This document shows positions 15,168 to 26,153 of a DNA stretch of 48,338 nt, piece by piece (the first letter of the stretch is position 1; each line of letters starts with the position of its first letter). This DNA comes from a virus: positions 1 through 48,338 of the IMG/VR virus record IMGVR_UViG_3300030328_000346, one strand, 5' to 3'. A program made the position numbers and the translations under genes. Below the pieces are notes generated by a model. The model was not told where the DNA came from. It saw nothing but the letters and a program-made list of their open reading frames with translations, and did no database searches.

Positions 15168-15575
15168 TTATACTTCTTCCATATCTATTACTACTGCATC
15201 TTTAGTAGGCAGTATAAATAAACCTCCTTGAACATTATGATCTACAGTCATCTTTTCAGTTTTAGTAACACCAACACGATCTAAGATCTGTTGTGCTGCT
15301 TGTAATCTAATATTAGCTTGAGGTATCGGACGATCAGAGTCTAATACTTCTACCATTTTCATAGCTGCTCTAGGCGCATGGTGAGCCAATAGGTCTTGGG
15401 CTAAATCCACTAGTTCATTTTTAACGCTATTTATAACTTGATAGTGATTTCCCTTATAACCTGCTAACTCAGCAGCTAATTTTAGATCACCCCCTACTTC
15501 AACTACTTTGTCAAGAAAAGTTTGTTGTTTTTCAGTAAGTTCTTTTTTCCTATTTTTCTGAGATAAATAGTTCAT
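15168..15575 (-). CDS. terS: Terminase small subunit (leaderless start chosen)
   Basis: A 135-residue protein from the ATG at 15575. The frame is open farther up to a TTG at 15611, but that TTG is the first base of a consensus -35 box and the intervening DNA is the promoter, so the longer start is rejected. Residues ~10-50 (LTEKQQTFLDKVVEVGGDLK, then AAELAGYKG) form the HTH typical of small terminases. A helical middle (ANIRLQAAQQILDRVGV) and a strand-rich tail follow. It recognises packaging DNA and regulates TerL. The ATG lies where transcription should begin, so the mRNA appears leaderless. Confidence 0.82.
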   Translation of the reverse strand: MNYLSQKNRKKELTEKQQTFLDKVVEVGGDLKLAAELAGYKGNHYQVINSVKNELVDLAQDLLAHHAPRAAMKMVEVLDSDRPIPQANIRLQAAQQILDRVGVTKTEKMTVDHNVQGGLFILPTKDAVVIDMEEV

Positions 15576-15582
15576 GTTGCTA

Positions 15583-15611
15583 AGTATAGGAGCCTTATTT
15601 AGTTTTGTCAA
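15583..15611 (-). promoter_or_regulatory. Sigma70 promoter for the leftward late unit
   Basis: TTGACA (15611-15606), a 17-bp spacer and TATACT (15588-15583) on the minus strand. The predicted start is about 15576-15575, at the terS ATG. The -35 matches consensus in 6 of 6 positions and the -10 in 5 of 6. Confidence 0.88.
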
Positions 15612-15630: not shown

Positions 15631-15659
15631 TTGACAAATGCTATTTTGGACTCTATACT
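15631..15659 (+). promoter_or_regulatory. Sigma70 promoter for the rightward early unit
   Basis: TTGACA (15631-15636), a 17-bp spacer and TATACT (15654-15659). It has the same boxes and spacing as the divergent minus-strand promoter. The predicted start is near 15666. The first gene begins 440 nt downstream. Confidence 0.88.
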
Positions 15660-15662
15660 GGA

Positions 15663-15683
15663 GCAATCCCTAGCCAGGGTTGC
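15663..15683 (+). promoter_or_regulatory. 5'-end hairpin of the early transcript
   Basis: GCAATCCCT / AGGGTTGC pair over 8 bp with one bulged T and an AGCC loop, right at the predicted transcript start. It may stabilise the mRNA 5' end or act as an operator. Confidence 0.6.
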
Positions 15684-15708
15684 ATATAGTAATCCAGCAT
15701 ACTATAAA
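15680..15708 (+). promoter_or_regulatory. Possible second tandem promoter
   Basis: TTGCAT (15680-15685), 17 bp, TATAAA (15703-15708). It is weaker than the upstream promoter (4/6 and 5/6). The -10 box lies within the perfect inverted repeat 15702-15718, so it could be regulated. Confidence 0.45.
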
Positions 15709-16032
15709 GTTTTTATAGCCCGCCTAGCTGGTACACACTCTAAAGTCTTTCAAAATGTTTATAATTCCTATCTATATACTGGTGGGGGGTATGGCATCCT
15801 GCCTAGCCCTAGCTAGTAGATAGATATAGACACTAGATAGTCTAGAAAAGCCTCTTTAGTCTATGACCAAGACTAGCTCTTACTAGTACACAGAGCCTGT
15901 CAAGACTTTCTAGCATTATCATGCTTGCAATAAACAAACTAGAAAACCTAAGAAACTCAATGGCCTAGTAGATTATATCATTTGTTGTCATTAATTCCAC
16001 AAACAACATCATTCTAACGACTAAACGGTAAT

Positions 16033-16108: not shown

Positions 16109-16546
16109 ATGACAACAAATGAAAAAATCTCTAGCAGCAATCCTACTAACGAAGCTACCGGGCCTTCAGAAGCTTTACTTACGGCCATTGGTCTTAGGTT
16201 TTGTTCTAGCTTGACCTTCACAGCTATTAGCAAACAGGATATGCAAACCAAGAACTTGCAAGCAGATAATGCCACGATGGATTGTCTCAAGAAAGTCTTG
16301 ACAGTCATTGGAGCTACCAAGGCTGATTGCTGGCAGCTAATGAATAACCCTAACATCAGCGCACTGCCTGAAGAGCTAGTCGATGCTGTTAAGGTGCAAG
16401 CACAGCGTGATAGCATTGAGTTACCCACGACTGAAGAGGCTTTTCAGAAGAAAGCTAGATTATCCCCTGCTGAACAGCAAAAGGTAGATCAGCAGTCGTT
16501 GTTAACTAGCCTATCTAGCAAGTTAGCCGCTTTCACAGCTAAGTAA
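16109..16546 (+). CDS. First early gene, hypothetical protein (145 aa)
   Basis: A 145-residue protein. The ATG at 16109 is chosen because AAAAGGAAA lies 5-10 bases upstream; an in-frame TTG at 16085 has no such site. The sequence starts MTTNEKISSSNPTNEATGPS, has a helical middle (MDCLKKVLTVIGATKADCWQ) and ends with Ala/Lys/Gln-rich helices (SLLTSLSSKLAAFTAK). Codon use is more GC-ending than the following small genes, which suggests high expression. As the first gene behind the strongest promoter and a long leader it may be a host-takeover or abundant DNA-binding protein; no family is recognised. Confidence 0.7.
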   Translation: MTTNEKISSSNPTNEATGPSEALLTAIGLRFCSSLTFTAISKQDMQTKNLQADNATMDCLKKVLTVIGATKADCWQLMNNPNISALPEELVDAVKVQAQRDSIELPTTEEAFQKKARLSPAEQQKVDQQSLLTSLSSKLAAFTAK

Positions 16547-18808: not shown

Positions 18809-18843
18809 CTTTAATCTAATTAATTTTTGAGGATATGCTACGC

Positions 18844-19428
18844 ATGAAGGTTTTAATAGCTTGTGAGTCTAGCGGAACAGTCCGTGAAGCTTTTAGAAAA
18901 TTAGATCATGAAGCATGGTCTTGTGATTTATTGCCTCCAGATGATGATAGTAAATATCATTTACAGTTTGATTGTATTGAAGCATTAACGTGGGAAGAGT
19001 GGGACTTAATTATTATGCATCCTCCTTGTACAGCATTAGCTGTATCAGGAAATGCTTGGTATGGTAAAGGAATGCCTAAACATAATAAAAGAATAGAATC
19101 TATTGAATGGACTACAAAACTTTGGAAGTTTGCTACAGATATGTGCAATAAAGTTTGTATGGAAAACCCAGTAGGTGTGCTTCCTTTTAAACCTACACAG
19201 TATATACAGCCTTGGATGTTTGGGCATCCTGAGTCTAAAAAGACAGGATTATGGTTGTATGGTTTACCTAAACTAAAGGAGACTAATAACGTAAAAGAAA
19301 AATATGATACTTTACCAAGAAAAGAACAAATGAGATTACATTATTTACCTCCATCAAAAGATAGATGGAAAATTAGAAGCAAAACTTTTCAAGGTATTGC
19401 AGATGCAATGGCTAAACAATGGAGTTAA
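18844..19428 (+). CDS. DNA cytosine methyltransferase-like protein (194 aa)
   Basis: A 194-residue protein from the second ATG (18844), which has GAGGAT ten bases upstream; the ATG at 18835 is too close to that site. MKVLIACESSGTVREAFRKL is a Rossmann SAM-binding start, followed by acidic strand end CDLLPPDDDSK, WDLIIMHPPCTALAVSG (PPC as in cytosine-C5 motif IV) and VCMENPVGVL (ENP as in motif VI). It lacks the C-terminal target recognition domain and later motifs of full C5 methyltransferases, so it is a mini-version, common in phages and of uncertain activity. It could protect phage DNA or modify nucleotides; inferred. Confidence 0.65.
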   Translation: MKVLIACESSGTVREAFRKLDHEAWSCDLLPPDDDSKYHLQFDCIEALTWEEWDLIIMHPPCTALAVSGNAWYGKGMPKHNKRIESIEWTTKLWKFATDMCNKVCMENPVGVLPFKPTQYIQPWMFGHPESKKTGLWLYGLPKLKETNNVKEKYDTLPRKEQMRLHYLPPSKDRWKIRSKTFQGIADAMAKQWS

Positions 19429-22021: not shown

Positions 22022-23698
22022 ATGGCTTTTGTTAAATTTCATGTTGCATGTAAGTCATGTGATAGTAGTGATGCTGTGAGTATAAATGATGACGGATCAG
22101 CAAAATGTTTTAGTTGTGGAACATTCTTTCCAGACTATGAAGAACCTGATACAGTTGTACAGAAACCTGTACATTTAAATGAAGTATATCGGAGAGAGAA
22201 TATTACTATGTCAAGCCCTGTTATATCACAAGATTCTTATACAGGTGTTTTTGGAGATCTAAGAGATAGAAGTATCTCTGAAGATACAGCAAAGCATTAT
22301 AATGTAAGAGTTACATATACCTCTGATGGAGAAATAGATAAACATTATTACCCTTATTATGCTAACAATGAATTAGTTGCTCATAAGATTCGTAAAGTAA
22401 AAACAAAAGGTTTTACTAGTCAAGGCAAGATTCAAGAAGCTGAGTTATTTGGACAGACTCTTTGTAATCCTGGTGCTAAGTATATTACGATTACAGAAGG
22501 TGAGTGTGATGCTATGGCAGCTTACGAGCTTACAGGTAGTAGATGGCCTGTTGTGTCCATTAAGAATGGCGCACAGTCAGCAGCAGCAGATGTTAAAAAG
22601 AACCTTGAGTTTCTTAGTTCGTTTGAAAATGTAATTATTTGTTTTGATTCAGACAAGGCAGGAAGAGATGCAGCAAAAACAGTTGCAGGATTATTCCCTC
22701 CTAATAAAGCAAAGATAATGACACTGCCAGCAGAGTATAAAGATGCTAATGATATGCTTAGAAAATCACAACATAAAAAGTTTGTTGATTGCTTTTGGCA
22801 AGCAAAGACTATTACACCTGCGGGTATTATTAGAGTATCAGAAAAATTTAGTTCTTGGAAAGATCGTACAGAAAAAGAAAGTATTCCTTATCCTTGGGGA
22901 GTACTCAATGAAAAGCTTCATGGCATTCGCAAGGGTGAACTAGTAACTGTATGTGGTGGTACAGGTCTTGGTAAGACTAGTGTAACAAGAGAGTTAGAAC
23001 ATTGGATTCTTAATAACAGTGAAGACAATATAGGTATTATTGCATTAGAAGAAGATTGGAGGCGTACAGTAGATGGTATTCTTGCAATTGATTGTAATGA
23101 AAAGATTCACTTAGAAGAAGTCAGAGCTAAGTATACAGAAGAAGAACTAGATAATCTTTATCAAAGAGTATTGTCTAATGATAAACTTTTTATTCATTCA
23201 CACTTTGGGATCAATACTGTAGAAGAAATCTTTGCAAAGATACGTTACTTAATTGTAGGTTGCGAATGTAAGTGGATAGTGCTTGATCACTTACACATGC
23301 TTGTATCAGCTTTAGAAGGTGGCGATGAAAGAAGGTTGATAGATAATATAATGACACAGCTTCGTAGTCTTGTAGAAGAAACAGGAGCAGGACTTATACT
23401 TGTATCTCACTTGCGTAAGATAGAAGGTAATGCAGGACATGAGAATGGTGCAGAAGTAAACATTAGCCATCTTCGTGGTAGTGGTGCCATTGCACAACTA
23501 TCAGATTGTGTGATAGCCTTAGAAAGAAATCAACAAGCTGAAGATAAAACTGAAGCAAACACAACCAGGATTAGAATCTTAAAGTCTAGGCATACAGGTG
23601 AAGTCGGTTTAGCAGGTAATCTTTTGTATGATTCTATATCAGGAAGATTAGTAGAAACTGAATTTACAAGTACACTTATAGATGACATACCTTTTTAA
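22022..23698 (+). CDS. Primase-helicase (T7 gp4-like)
   Basis: A 558-residue bifunctional replication protein (T7 gp4A is 566). The N-terminal zinc ribbon has C10, C13, C29, C32 (CKSCDSSDA; KCFSCGTFF). TOPRIM primase motifs are TITEGECDAMAAYE (~157) and IICFDSDKAGRDAA (~207). The RecA-type helicase has Walker A CGGTGLGKTS (~311), an 'IIALEEDWRRT' segment, and WIVLDHLHMLVS as Walker B with downstream 'LILVSHLRK' and 'HLRGSGAIAQLSD'. The ATG at 22022 is chosen for TTTGGAGAAAG upstream over a TTG at 22010. It unwinds DNA and primes lagging strands with the PolA and SSB encoded nearby. Confidence 0.95.
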   Translation: MAFVKFHVACKSCDSSDAVSINDDGSAKCFSCGTFFPDYEEPDTVVQKPVHLNEVYRRENITMSSPVISQDSYTGVFGDLRDRSISEDTAKHYNVRVTYTSDGEIDKHYYPYYANNELVAHKIRKVKTKGFTSQGKIQEAELFGQTLCNPGAKYITITEGECDAMAAYELTGSRWPVVSIKNGAQSAAADVKKNLEFLSSFENVIICFDSDKAGRDAAKTVAGLFPPNKAKIMTLPAEYKDANDMLRKSQHKKFVDCFWQAKTITPAGIIRVSEKFSSWKDRTEKESIPYPWGVLNEKLHGIRKGELVTVCGGTGLGKTSVTRELEHWILNNSEDNIGIIALEEDWRRTVDGILAIDCNEKIHLEEVRAKYTEEELDNLYQRVLSNDKLFIHSHFGINTVEEIFAKIRYLIVGCECKWIVLDHLHMLVSALEGGDERRLIDNIMTQLRSLVEETGAGLILVSHLRKIEGNAGHENGAEVNISHLRGSGAIAQLSDCVIALERNQQAEDKTEANTTRIRILKSRHTGEVGLAGNLLYDSISGRLVETEFTSTLIDDIPF

Positions 23699-23708
23699 TG
23701 GAGCAAAG

Positions 23709-23945
23709 ATGTTTTATACAGCAATTCAAAAGCAGCAAGCACATACAAAAAAAGAACAATGCTACTTTTTAATAGAAAGAGATGGTACTGTATTAAGAAA
23801 AAAACATAGACAATCTTTAGAGGAAGATGAAATTAAAAATATAATCGCTCTTACTAAAGAAGGAAAAGAAGTAAAAGTTATTTCTAAATTATTAGACTTA
23901 GCTGAATCTACAGTATACAGATATAGAAGAGAAGCAAACAAATGA
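23709..23945 (+). CDS. Small HTH protein between helicase and polymerase (78 aa)
   Basis: A 78-residue basic protein starting MFYTAIQKQQAHTKKEQCYF. The ATG at 23709 is chosen for GGAG seven bases upstream. The C-terminal 'NIIALTKEGKEVKVISKLLD' followed by LAESTVYRYRREA is a helix-turn-helix of the Hin/resolvase type: 'G.....IS+LL.+.ESTVYRY'. It overlaps the polymerase start by 4 bases. It may be a transcription regulator of the phage or an origin-binding protein; inferred from the fold only. Confidence 0.65.
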   Translation: MFYTAIQKQQAHTKKEQCYFLIERDGTVLRKKHRQSLEEDEIKNIIALTKEGKEVKVISKLLDLAESTVYRYRREANK

Positions 23946-25672
23946 ACTTAGTTTTTGATATAGAAACAGACGGCCTCAATGCATCAGTTATCTGGTGTAT
24001 TGTGGCTAAGGATATAGATACAAATCAAATTTATTCTTTTTCTCCTTCTAACATAGAAGAAGGAATTGAGTTGTTGGCGAGATCTAAAATATTAATAGGT
24101 CATAACATTTTAGGATTTGATATTCCTGTCTTAGAAAAACTTACTGACATATCTTTTAAGAATAAAAAGATAATAGATACGTTAGTTCTTTCTAGATTAG
24201 CAAACCCTGAAAGAGATGGTCACGGATTAAAAGCGTGGGGGTTTAAATTAAACTATCATAAAGGTCTTATGAAAGAAGAAGATTTTAATGAGTACACACC
24301 AGAAATGTTAGAGTACTGCATTAATGATGTAGAATTAAATGCATTAGTTTTCCAGGCACTGTTGACTGAGTTGACGGACTTTGGTGAAGAGTCTGTAAAG
24401 CTTGAACATCAAGTTGCTAAGATATTAAAAGATCAAGAAAATCATGGCTTTATGTTAGATGTAGAGAAAGCACATAAACTTTTAGCAACATTAAAACAAA
24501 CTAACCAAGAGATTGTTGAGGAAGTACATAAAGTTTTCTTGCCTAAAAAAGTTAAGTTAAAGACAGTAGTTCCTAAGTTTAAAAAAGATGGAACATTATC
24601 TAAACAAGGGTTGACAGAAGAAGAGTATGAATGTTATTCTAAAAAACATCCTACTCAAGTACTTGCATTTGACAGATATAAGATACAAGATTTTAATTTA
24701 AATTCAAGAAAACAAATTGGAGAATACTTACAGGACTTTGGTTGGAAGCCAAAGAAGTTTACTCCAACAGGACAACCTATTGTAGATGAGTCAACTTTAA
24801 ACACAATAGAAAATATACCTCAAGCCAAATTAATTAGTCAATTTTTATTACTAAACAAACGTGTTGCTTTAGTAGATTCTTGGTTTAAAAATTTAAAAGA
24901 CGATAGGGTTCATGGCTATGCTGTTCACAATGGCGCTGTTACAGGGCGTATGACGCATTTTAAGCCCAATATGGCACAGATACCAGCTACCTACAGCCCT
25001 TATGGAAAAGACTGTAGAGCTTGTTGGACGGTGCCTGAAGGCCATAAACTAATAGGCATAGATGCAAGTGGTTTAGAATTAAGAATGCTTGCACATTATA
25101 TGAATGATAGGAGCTATACAAATGAAATCCTTAACGGAGATATTCACACCGCTAATCAAAAACTTGCGGGACTTGAATCAAGAGATAAGAGTAAGACATT
25201 CATTTATGCATACTTATACGGCGCTGGAAATGAACGACTTGGCTCAGTGGTTGGAGGAAACAGAAAAGATGGTAAGAGACTTAGAGAATCTTTCCTTGCT
25301 AATTTACCAGCACTTGCAAATCTCAAAGATAGAGTTGAACGAGCGGCTAAAAGAGGTTTCTTAAAAGGATTAGATGGTCGTAAAGTTACTATAAGATCAG
25401 AACATGCTGCTTTGAATACATTATTACAAAGTGCAGGTGCTATAATTATGAAGAAAGCTTTAGTTTTATTTGTAGATTCTATTAAACATTTAAATGCTCA
25501 GTGTGTAGCTAATGTACATGACGAGTGGCAAGTAGAATGTTTAGAAAAAGATGCAGAAGAAGTAGGCCGTAGAGGAGTTCAAGCTATTAAAGATGCTGGA
25601 GTTCACTTTGACTTACGTTGCCCTTTAGATGGAGAATATAAAATAGGAGATAATTGGAGTGACACACACTAG
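23942..25672 (+). CDS. DNA polymerase I family, T7-type
   Basis: A 576-residue family A polymerase with 3'-5' exonuclease. Exo motifs are LVFDIETDGL, GHNILGFDIPVLE and YCINDVELNA. Polymerase motif A is GIDASGLELRMLAH (~372), motif B RDKSKTFIYAYLYGAG (~414-429) and motif C NVHDEWQVEC (~525). 'HNGAVTGRMTHFKPNMAQIP' and the end 'GEYKIGDNWSDTH' align readily with T7 gp5. The residue equal to E. coli F762 is Tyr, the form linked to virulent phages. It is about 128 residues shorter than T7 gp5; whether a thioredoxin-binding insert remains needs an alignment. ATGA overlap with the HTH gene. Confidence 0.95.
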   Translation: MNLVFDIETDGLNASVIWCIVAKDIDTNQIYSFSPSNIEEGIELLARSKILIGHNILGFDIPVLEKLTDISFKNKKIIDTLVLSRLANPERDGHGLKAWGFKLNYHKGLMKEEDFNEYTPEMLEYCINDVELNALVFQALLTELTDFGEESVKLEHQVAKILKDQENHGFMLDVEKAHKLLATLKQTNQEIVEEVHKVFLPKKVKLKTVVPKFKKDGTLSKQGLTEEEYECYSKKHPTQVLAFDRYKIQDFNLNSRKQIGEYLQDFGWKPKKFTPTGQPIVDESTLNTIENIPQAKLISQFLLLNKRVALVDSWFKNLKDDRVHGYAVHNGAVTGRMTHFKPNMAQIPATYSPYGKDCRACWTVPEGHKLIGIDASGLELRMLAHYMNDRSYTNEILNGDIHTANQKLAGLESRDKSKTFIYAYLYGAGNERLGSVVGGNRKDGKRLRESFLANLPALANLKDRVERAAKRGFLKGLDGRKVTIRSEHAALNTLLQSAGAIIMKKALVLFVDSIKHLNAQCVANVHDEWQVECLEKDAEEVGRRGVQAIKDAGVHFDLRCPLDGEYKIGDNWSDTH

Positions 25673-26153
25673 GATTAACCCAAAGACAAATAAACCTTAT
25701 TATTACAAAGATAATCCTGAAGCTGTTAAAGCTAGGGATGCTAAAAGAATGTATGTTAATGGTAAAGAAGTATCAAAGAAACATCCTTTGTATAGACCTG
25801 GAAGATATAAAGGATTTACAGATGCAGCTTTTAGTTCTTTAGAAAATTATGAATCTTCTAAGGAAGGGCAAGTATATGTTTTATGTAATCCTGCTTTTCC
25901 TAATTGGTGTAAAGTAGGCATGGCTGTAGATGCGCAAGATAGATTAAAACAGTTTCAGCTTTCTTCACCGTATAGAGATTTTAAACTTCTTAAAATATTT
26001 AATACTGATGATAGAAGAAAATCTGAAGCTGAAGCACATTCTTTTTTAGAGCAGTATTATTTACGAAGAGGTGAGTGGTTTGCTTCTTGTCCAGAACAAG
26101 CTGCTGAATTATTATCAAATTTATTTGAAGGAAAACAACTTGAGTTATTCTAG
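25659..26153 (+). CDS. GIY-YIG (T5orf172-type) nuclease
   Basis: A 164-residue protein with a GTG start overlapping the polymerase stop by 14 bases (GGAGATAATTGGA upstream). The N-terminal 'INPKTNKPYYYKDNPEAVKA' resembles a short DNA-interaction segment seen in free-standing phage nucleases. Residues ~70-150 carry 'GQVYVLCNPAFPNWCKVGMA' (GIY..YIG-type pair), DRLKQFQLSSPY with R95, a conserved SEAEAH Glu and 'YYLRRGEWFASCP' ending, as in the T5orf172/MUG113 group. It may be a homing-type endonuclease or a recombination or repair nuclease. It sits between polymerase and exonuclease genes. Confidence 0.75.
   Translation: MTHTRINPKTNKPYYYKDNPEAVKARDAKRMYVNGKEVSKKHPLYRPGRYKGFTDAAFSSLENYESSKEGQVYVLCNPAFPNWCKVGMAVDAQDRLKQFQLSSPYRDFKLLKIFNTDDRRKSEAEAHSFLEQYYLRRGEWFASCPEQAAELLSNLFEGKQLELF

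Follow-up and report, generated by a model that had tools for sequence, protein, structure and literature searches.

The intergenic region into which the predicted early promoter of an HMO-2011-type podophage reads contains a conserved element, present in a single copy, for which we tentatively propose, at somewhat under an even chance, the function of a cis-acting origin of replication joined to a divergent early/late promoter region. The excess of CTAG tetramers by which an earlier note, made from the letters alone, had singled out this region is best read as the form taken in one lineage by the palindromic, TpA-rich filler around the conserved core; the leader is important, and CTAG is not its key.

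The window (the whole stretch analyzed, 48,338 nucleotides of the virus record IMGVR_UViG_3300030328_000346) encodes a large terminase, portal, primase-helicase, PolA-type polymerase and ribonucleotide reductase, as expected of an HMO-2011-type podophage. The best isolate matches were Pelagibacter phages HTVC115P, HTVC103P and HTVC104P (about 66% TerL identity), and the TerL of HMO-2011 was 49% identical. The CTAG region adjoins back-to-back sigma-70 promoters, rightward at 15631-15659 and leftward at 15611-15583, and the first gene of the rightward transcript begins at 16109, past the CTAG stretch. The features of the locus are as follows.

15583..15611, minus strand: predicted leftward sigma-70 promoter TTGACA-17-TATACT, driving terS; 11/12 consensus matches.
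15631..15659, plus strand: predicted rightward sigma-70 promoter TTGACA-17-TATACT, directed into the CTAG stretch; equivalent in 70/75 relatives.
15663..15683, plus strand: 5′-terminal transcript hairpin GCAATCCCTAGCCAGGGTTGC, conserved with compensatory changes.
15670..15968, no strand: stretch occupied by the 12 CTAG tetramers, a palindromic filler specific to the lineage.
15725..15811, plus strand: conserved single-copy core (matched once in the window by model R1, E = 9.7e-18).
15728..15737, plus strand: middle box CTGGTACACA.
15752..15779, plus strand: core AT stretch AAAATGTTTATAATTCCTATCTATATAC.
15784..15789, plus strand: GC tract, G here and C in about one third of relatives.
15792..15803, plus strand: TGGC..GCC motif TGGCATCCTGCC.
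15883..15892, plus strand: right box CTAGTACACA.

A rightward promoter TTGACA-N16..18-TATAnT was found upstream of the core in 70 of the 75 leaders, the window included, in support of the proposed transcript start before the CTAG stretch. The leader of about 440 nt described for this phage was confirmed, but its length varies widely among relatives. The claim that it holds no gene stood, since the sole listed reading frame (61 amino acids, TTG start, 15631-15816) starts at the −35 box and is implausible; a short open reading frame from a conserved AUG in the core was likewise rejected, its frame being unconserved among the relatives read. On the leftward side the terS ATG, at 15575, lies 7 nt past the −10 box, and the terS mRNA is probably leaderless. 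The same ATG to −10 spacing is visible in relatives L003-L006.

The 5′-terminal hairpin noted previously is real and kept in relatives, where it is typically ACCCACCGGGGU, lengthened by compensatory pairs, and its mismatches are RNA-like (17 G-U vs 7 A-C). The two TAGTCT copies proposed to compete for one AGACTA are in sequence that already varies from one sister lineage to the next, and so do not constitute a conserved switch. Intrinsic terminators ending the leader are rare (3/72 on the plus strand, 8 on the minus strand), and therefore a stand-alone small RNA ended by a terminator was ruled out as a general explanation.

Direct counting gave 12 CTAG tetramers in 15661-15975, located at 15670-15968, which bears out the saturation originally described: the zero-order composition of these 315 nt predicts 1.1, the window-wide rate (177 in 48,338) predicts 1.14, and the richest other 315-nt stretch of the whole 48-kb window, found by the genome-wide count that had been proposed as a check, holds 5. 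CTAG is mildly avoided window-wide, with 177 observed vs 241 by dinucleotide expectation. The contrast becomes smaller with the region's own dinucleotides, from which the expectation in 315 nt climbs to 4.3, and the region's own trinucleotides predict 8.3, an estimate which is circular.

Five sister lineages were compared (the window, L003, L005, L093 and L095), with identities mostly of 64–73% (85% for L003 vs L093). They carry 12, 8, 13, 11 and 10 CTAG, respectively, at 29 aligned positions; a single position is common to all five, and roughly half occur in one lineage only. The CTAG count is maintained while the sites move among sister lineages, and CTAG does not behave as a shared conserved word. 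The remaining 70 leaders have a mean of 2.9 CTAG per 440 nt and are rich in other palindromes (CTTTAAAG, CTCTAGAG, AGATCT, TATATATA and similar). Group-wide, the observed/expected ratio of CTAG is 2.33 in the element vs 1.11 in the rest of the same loci, and TATA reaches about 2.3 times expectation in the element vs 0.67 in the rest. The earlier note had named an unconserved leader lacking CTAG enrichment in relatives as a finding that would speak against it; the outcome was split, the leader core being conserved in relatives but strong CTAG enrichment being absent in most.

The CTAG excess could also be a by-product of local composition drift in noncoding sequence, of a restriction or methylation effect, or of template-switch mutations that create palindromes, CTAG itself not being under selection. 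This explanation, which is compatible with any account of the whole element, we consider somewhat doubtful: the limitation of the strong excess, HTVC033P and a few other exceptions apart, to the clade of the window, and the roughly 8 CTAG given by trinucleotide content alone, agree with it, whereas the counts hold at 8–13 despite high turnover at about 65% identity, and TpA-centred palindromes are enriched throughout the group. The window's own methyltransferase gene (18835-19428) was ruled out as the cause, because it is absent from the loci of the sister phages. This small methyltransferase-like gene (PHROG 757) has relatives, among the fetched loci, only in L159 and L022.

Relatives were fetched via TerL, the first early gene, a DUF932 protein, the 5′ hairpin and a core pattern, and the final set comprised 155 loci with one core each, among them 75 non-redundant full leaders. 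A profile of 13 close leaders matched the homologous region, in the same position upstream of terS, in nearly all the more distant relatives, with E-values of 1e-18 to 1e-5. The layout of the core is AAAATGTATA..ATTTAGTATATATA (the AT stretch), then the GC tract, then TGGCCnCCTGCCCACCC. Of 27 phage records searched with a sequence-only core model, 26 gave exactly one match, among them the isolates HMO-2011 and CRP-1 and three pelagiphages, and the core is kept in isolates whose TerL is only about 45–49% identical. HTVC115P was outside the training of this model, and HMO-2011, CRP-1, HTVC033P and HTVC103P were inside it, so that for these four the single copy number is the sole new information from the search. 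In CRP-3 the core model detected no core. BLAST of the window or of the relatives' leaders against GenBank phages returned nothing meaningful, since the conservation is too patchy for this method, and the one exact-pattern match in bacterial genomes was judged to be due to chance, since the box and the GGC motif are missing from it. The downstream genes are unrelated between relatives while the element persists.

Several relatives differ in what surrounds the core. In L099, L106, L107 and L108 a further hairpin block, about 80 nt long (GAAGATTGCC...GGCAATCTTC), is found between the core and the first gene; it is absent from the window, L101 and L105 and resembles an insertable hairpin unit. 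In L022, GGAGACCCTTT occurs in tandem copies within the leader, and in HMO-2011 and CRP-1 (L110, 13213-13400, and L119, reverse complement, 1-360) palindromes resembling CACTTAAGTG recur on that side of the core where the leftward promoter lies.

The box CTRGTNNACA is strongly directional, with 79 copies on the transcript strand vs 2 on the other, and its density is 1.83 per kb in the element vs 0.08 outside (23-fold). The middle box precedes the GGC motif by 63–66 nt, right copies are common, and in several phages a left copy is found between the −35 and −10 of the leftward promoter, upstream of the rightward promoter. The CTAG-binding repressor suggested at first found no support, since the word is peculiar to a lineage and the sequences flanking the 12 sites have no longer consensus in common; by its sequence pattern, the box is the better candidate for a protein site. 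A phage or host regulator acting on an array of such boxes, the left, middle and right copies of which lie about 130–200 bp apart and might loop the DNA, could switch between leftward (packaging/structural) and rightward (early) transcription. The density of the boxes, the fixed distance of the middle box from the core and, in several phages other than the window, the left box inside the leftward promoter spacer are consistent with such a switch. However, dimeric operators do not usually keep so strictly to one strand, the left box is missing from the window clade, no candidate regulator conserved across the group was found, and the AT/GC core and the TGGC..GCC motif would be left unexplained; we hold this to be decidedly unlikely.

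Two proteins encoded in the replication module were noted. An 87-amino-acid protein with a resolvase-type HTH (Pfam HTH_7, E = 1.4e-5) is encoded at 23682-23945, between the primase-helicase and the polymerase, and is the sole HTH protein near the replication genes; it had no match among GenBank phages and was by this test ruled out as a group-wide box-binding initiator. A T5orf172/MUG113-domain (GIY-YIG-like) protein is inserted in the module at 25659-26153.

By its pattern of change the element appears, provisionally, to act mainly at the DNA level, since the tract flips, G-U pairs are not in excess, TpA is enriched, and the core of HMO-2011 lacks the rightward promoter. Of the 75 leaders, 50 have G and 24 have C in the tract that follows the AT stretch, with palindromic GTACCCC intermediates, and therefore it is the GC tract and not its strand which is conserved. 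Inverted repeats are 2–3 times denser in the element than in dinucleotide shuffles, with symmetrical mismatches (for example, 45 G-U vs 55 A-C); the E. coli rRNA used as positive control gave few stems (3–8 G-U vs 0–4 A-C) and is too small to calibrate this test. The observed/expected ratio of TpA is 1.17 vs 0.95 (p = 1.6e-13). Since UpA steps are labile in RNA, this enrichment fits DNA flexibility better. At the core of HMO-2011 and CRP-1 no rightward promoter was recognizable, and the leftward promoter of HMO-2011 is yet perfect.

The covariance analysis of the leader across relatives which the earlier note had proposed gave little sign of RNA structure in the core, with 89.5% paired vs 89.1% in shuffles. 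The stem AUGUAUA/UAUAUAU and the GGC/GCC hairpin of the core were consequently rejected as conserved, and whole-leader consensus folding of 13 close relatives showed no coherent fold. Searches of Rfam 15 (4227 models) at the gathering threshold, and for the leader also at a permissive threshold, did not match any RNA family, whether at the element, elsewhere in the window, in the leader or at the loci of 13 relatives; one match in the relatives' search was a tRNA elsewhere in L055. Compensatory, G-U-tolerant pairing was thus confined to the 5′ hairpin, and of the structured regulatory RNA suggested from the sequence this hairpin stands, while the rest is DNA-like in its mismatches, tract swap, TpA content and weak core covariation.

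An abundant early noncoding or leader RNA, with the 5′ hairpin followed by an array of hairpins, might nevertheless be the product under selection; examples of its role would be put-like antitermination on RNA polymerase, titration of a host protein or control of early mRNA. The exact consensus spacing of the promoter in those 70 leaders, the compensatory changes and G-U over A-C excess of the 5′ hairpin, and the near confinement of the box to the transcribed strand speak for this possibility, as does the folding energy relative to shuffles, slightly better on the transcribed strand (−19.1 vs −16.1, 3 kcal/mol, p = 2e-4). In HTVC033P (L112, 200-1750) an extra leftward gene, gp84, with a strong terminator is located on the early side of the element, and the predicted rightward transcript lies tail-to-tail with gp84; because it would run into the terminator of this opposing gene it is not an mRNA leader in that phage, and it has no mRNA to lead, which suits a noncoding RNA and an origin alike. 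The inverted repeats lacking a G-U excess, the G tract swapped for a C tract that has no pairing partner, the weak covariation of the core, the TpA enrichment and the lack of any Rfam match point the other way, as do the left box copy, found within the leftward promoter's spacer and ahead of the rightward promoter, and the core kept in HMO-2011 and CRP-1 in the absence of a rightward promoter. On balance, we regard such an RNA as rather unlikely.

The position of the element in the genome bears on replication. In the window all long genes point away from it, and the GC skew changes sign at the element and again at about 32 kb. In 6/6 genomes the genes diverge from the core and the GC-skew minimum lies 0.5–1.3 kb from it, within 1.4 kb in every case, a measure confounded with gene orientation, since every gene runs in the direction of the presumed forks. 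The core stays at the gene divergence point in HMO-2011 and CRP-1 too, where the terminase genes lie elsewhere. This last arrangement also bears on the possibility of a packaging (pac/cos) site recognized by the terminase small subunit, whose gene starts beside the element. Such a site would suit the location of the element, which in the window and in most relatives is immediately upstream of terS, and directional repeats could set the direction of packaging; but the core is about 8 kb (HMO-2011) and about 5 kb (CRP-1) from terS, with other genes between, and the expected terS linkage is thereby lost, which makes a packaging site very improbable.

Single copy number, directionality, coupling to a promoter and a place at both the divergence point and the skew minimum are what one would expect of an origin from which a phage replicates in both directions, and of the three readings given in the earlier note this is the best supported, by the skew minimum, the single copy and the gene divergence, which bear on it indirectly. 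Host RNA polymerase would start at the strong rightward promoter at 15631-15659, make an RNA capped by the 5′ hairpin and pass through the core, that is, the box, the AT stretch, the GC tract and the TGGC..GCC motif. The duplex would be opened there, probably as an R-loop or by a protein bound to the box. The primase-helicase and the PolA-type polymerase of the phage would load at the opened core, and forks would depart both ways, each in the direction of the genes on its side. Palindromes and TpA-rich words around the core (CTAG here, CTTTAAAG or CTCTAGAG elsewhere) may serve as sequence-flexible filler aiding unwinding or hairpin extrusion. Against an origin stand the short AT run of the core (about 28 bp), the absence of the core from CRP-3, the RNA-like 5′ hairpin with the slightly better folding of the transcribed strand, and the orientation of the element, always the same relative to the promoter wherever a promoter exists, as would be that of an RNA. 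Mean AT is 68% in the core bin and 48–53% just after, and is not extreme around the core. No initiator protein was identified for the element. It is conceivable, if unlikely, that the element represents a new type of origin, in which a short conserved core (directional box, AT stretch, orientation-indifferent GC tract and TGGC..GCC motif) is surrounded by filler selected for its palindromic, TpA-rich character, the word itself (CTAG, CTTTAAAG, CTCTAGAG) being free.

By analogy, the nearest well-studied model for the element would be oriF/oriG of T4, which consist of a promoter and a downstream unwinding element and are primed by an R-loop (PMC3016281). In both cases a promoter sends a transcript into a nearby, easily opened segment which is noncoding and cis-acting, and the phage has its own polymerase and primase-helicase. 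Unlike in T4, the promoter here is of the plain host sigma-70 type and not MotA-dependent, the core is conserved in sequence, with directional boxes and a flippable GC tract, and the R-loop is only inferred. The primary origin of T7 consists of tandem early promoters followed by an AT-rich stretch. The element shares this order, and the phage has a T7-like primase-helicase and PolA polymerase, but no T7-type RNA polymerase was recognized among the larger proteins searched in the window phage, genes diverge on both sides, and a conserved box and GGC motif are present. HK022 put and lambda nut, which are leader RNAs, resemble the element in being promoter-proximal and transcribed at the start of an early transcription unit, with a hairpin near the 5′ end; they differ in that the core here is not RNA-like in its mutations, is several times longer, and is present without the rightward promoter in HMO-2011 and CRP-1. 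Large phage RNAs of the GOLLD/ROOL type and other Rfam families are similarly long, conserved noncoding stretches in phages, but the element matches none of the Rfam models.

In the sea, HMO-2011-type phages are reported to form a dominant group with a wide distribution (PMC9038755). That same paper, the main comparative study of these phages, makes no mention of intergenic elements, noncoding RNA or promoters, and a pelagiphage transcriptome paper (PMC12753301) none of intergenic or noncoding RNA; in the open-access papers searched no prior description of an origin, promoter map or noncoding element was found for the group. As far as this literature and Rfam show, the element is undescribed. 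It provides a defined sequence for testing where replication starts, how early transcription begins and where packaging occurs in HMO-2011-type phages, and it may be used as a nucleotide marker for these phages in metagenomes. The palindromic character that is kept while the word changes is a property worth testing in other systems.
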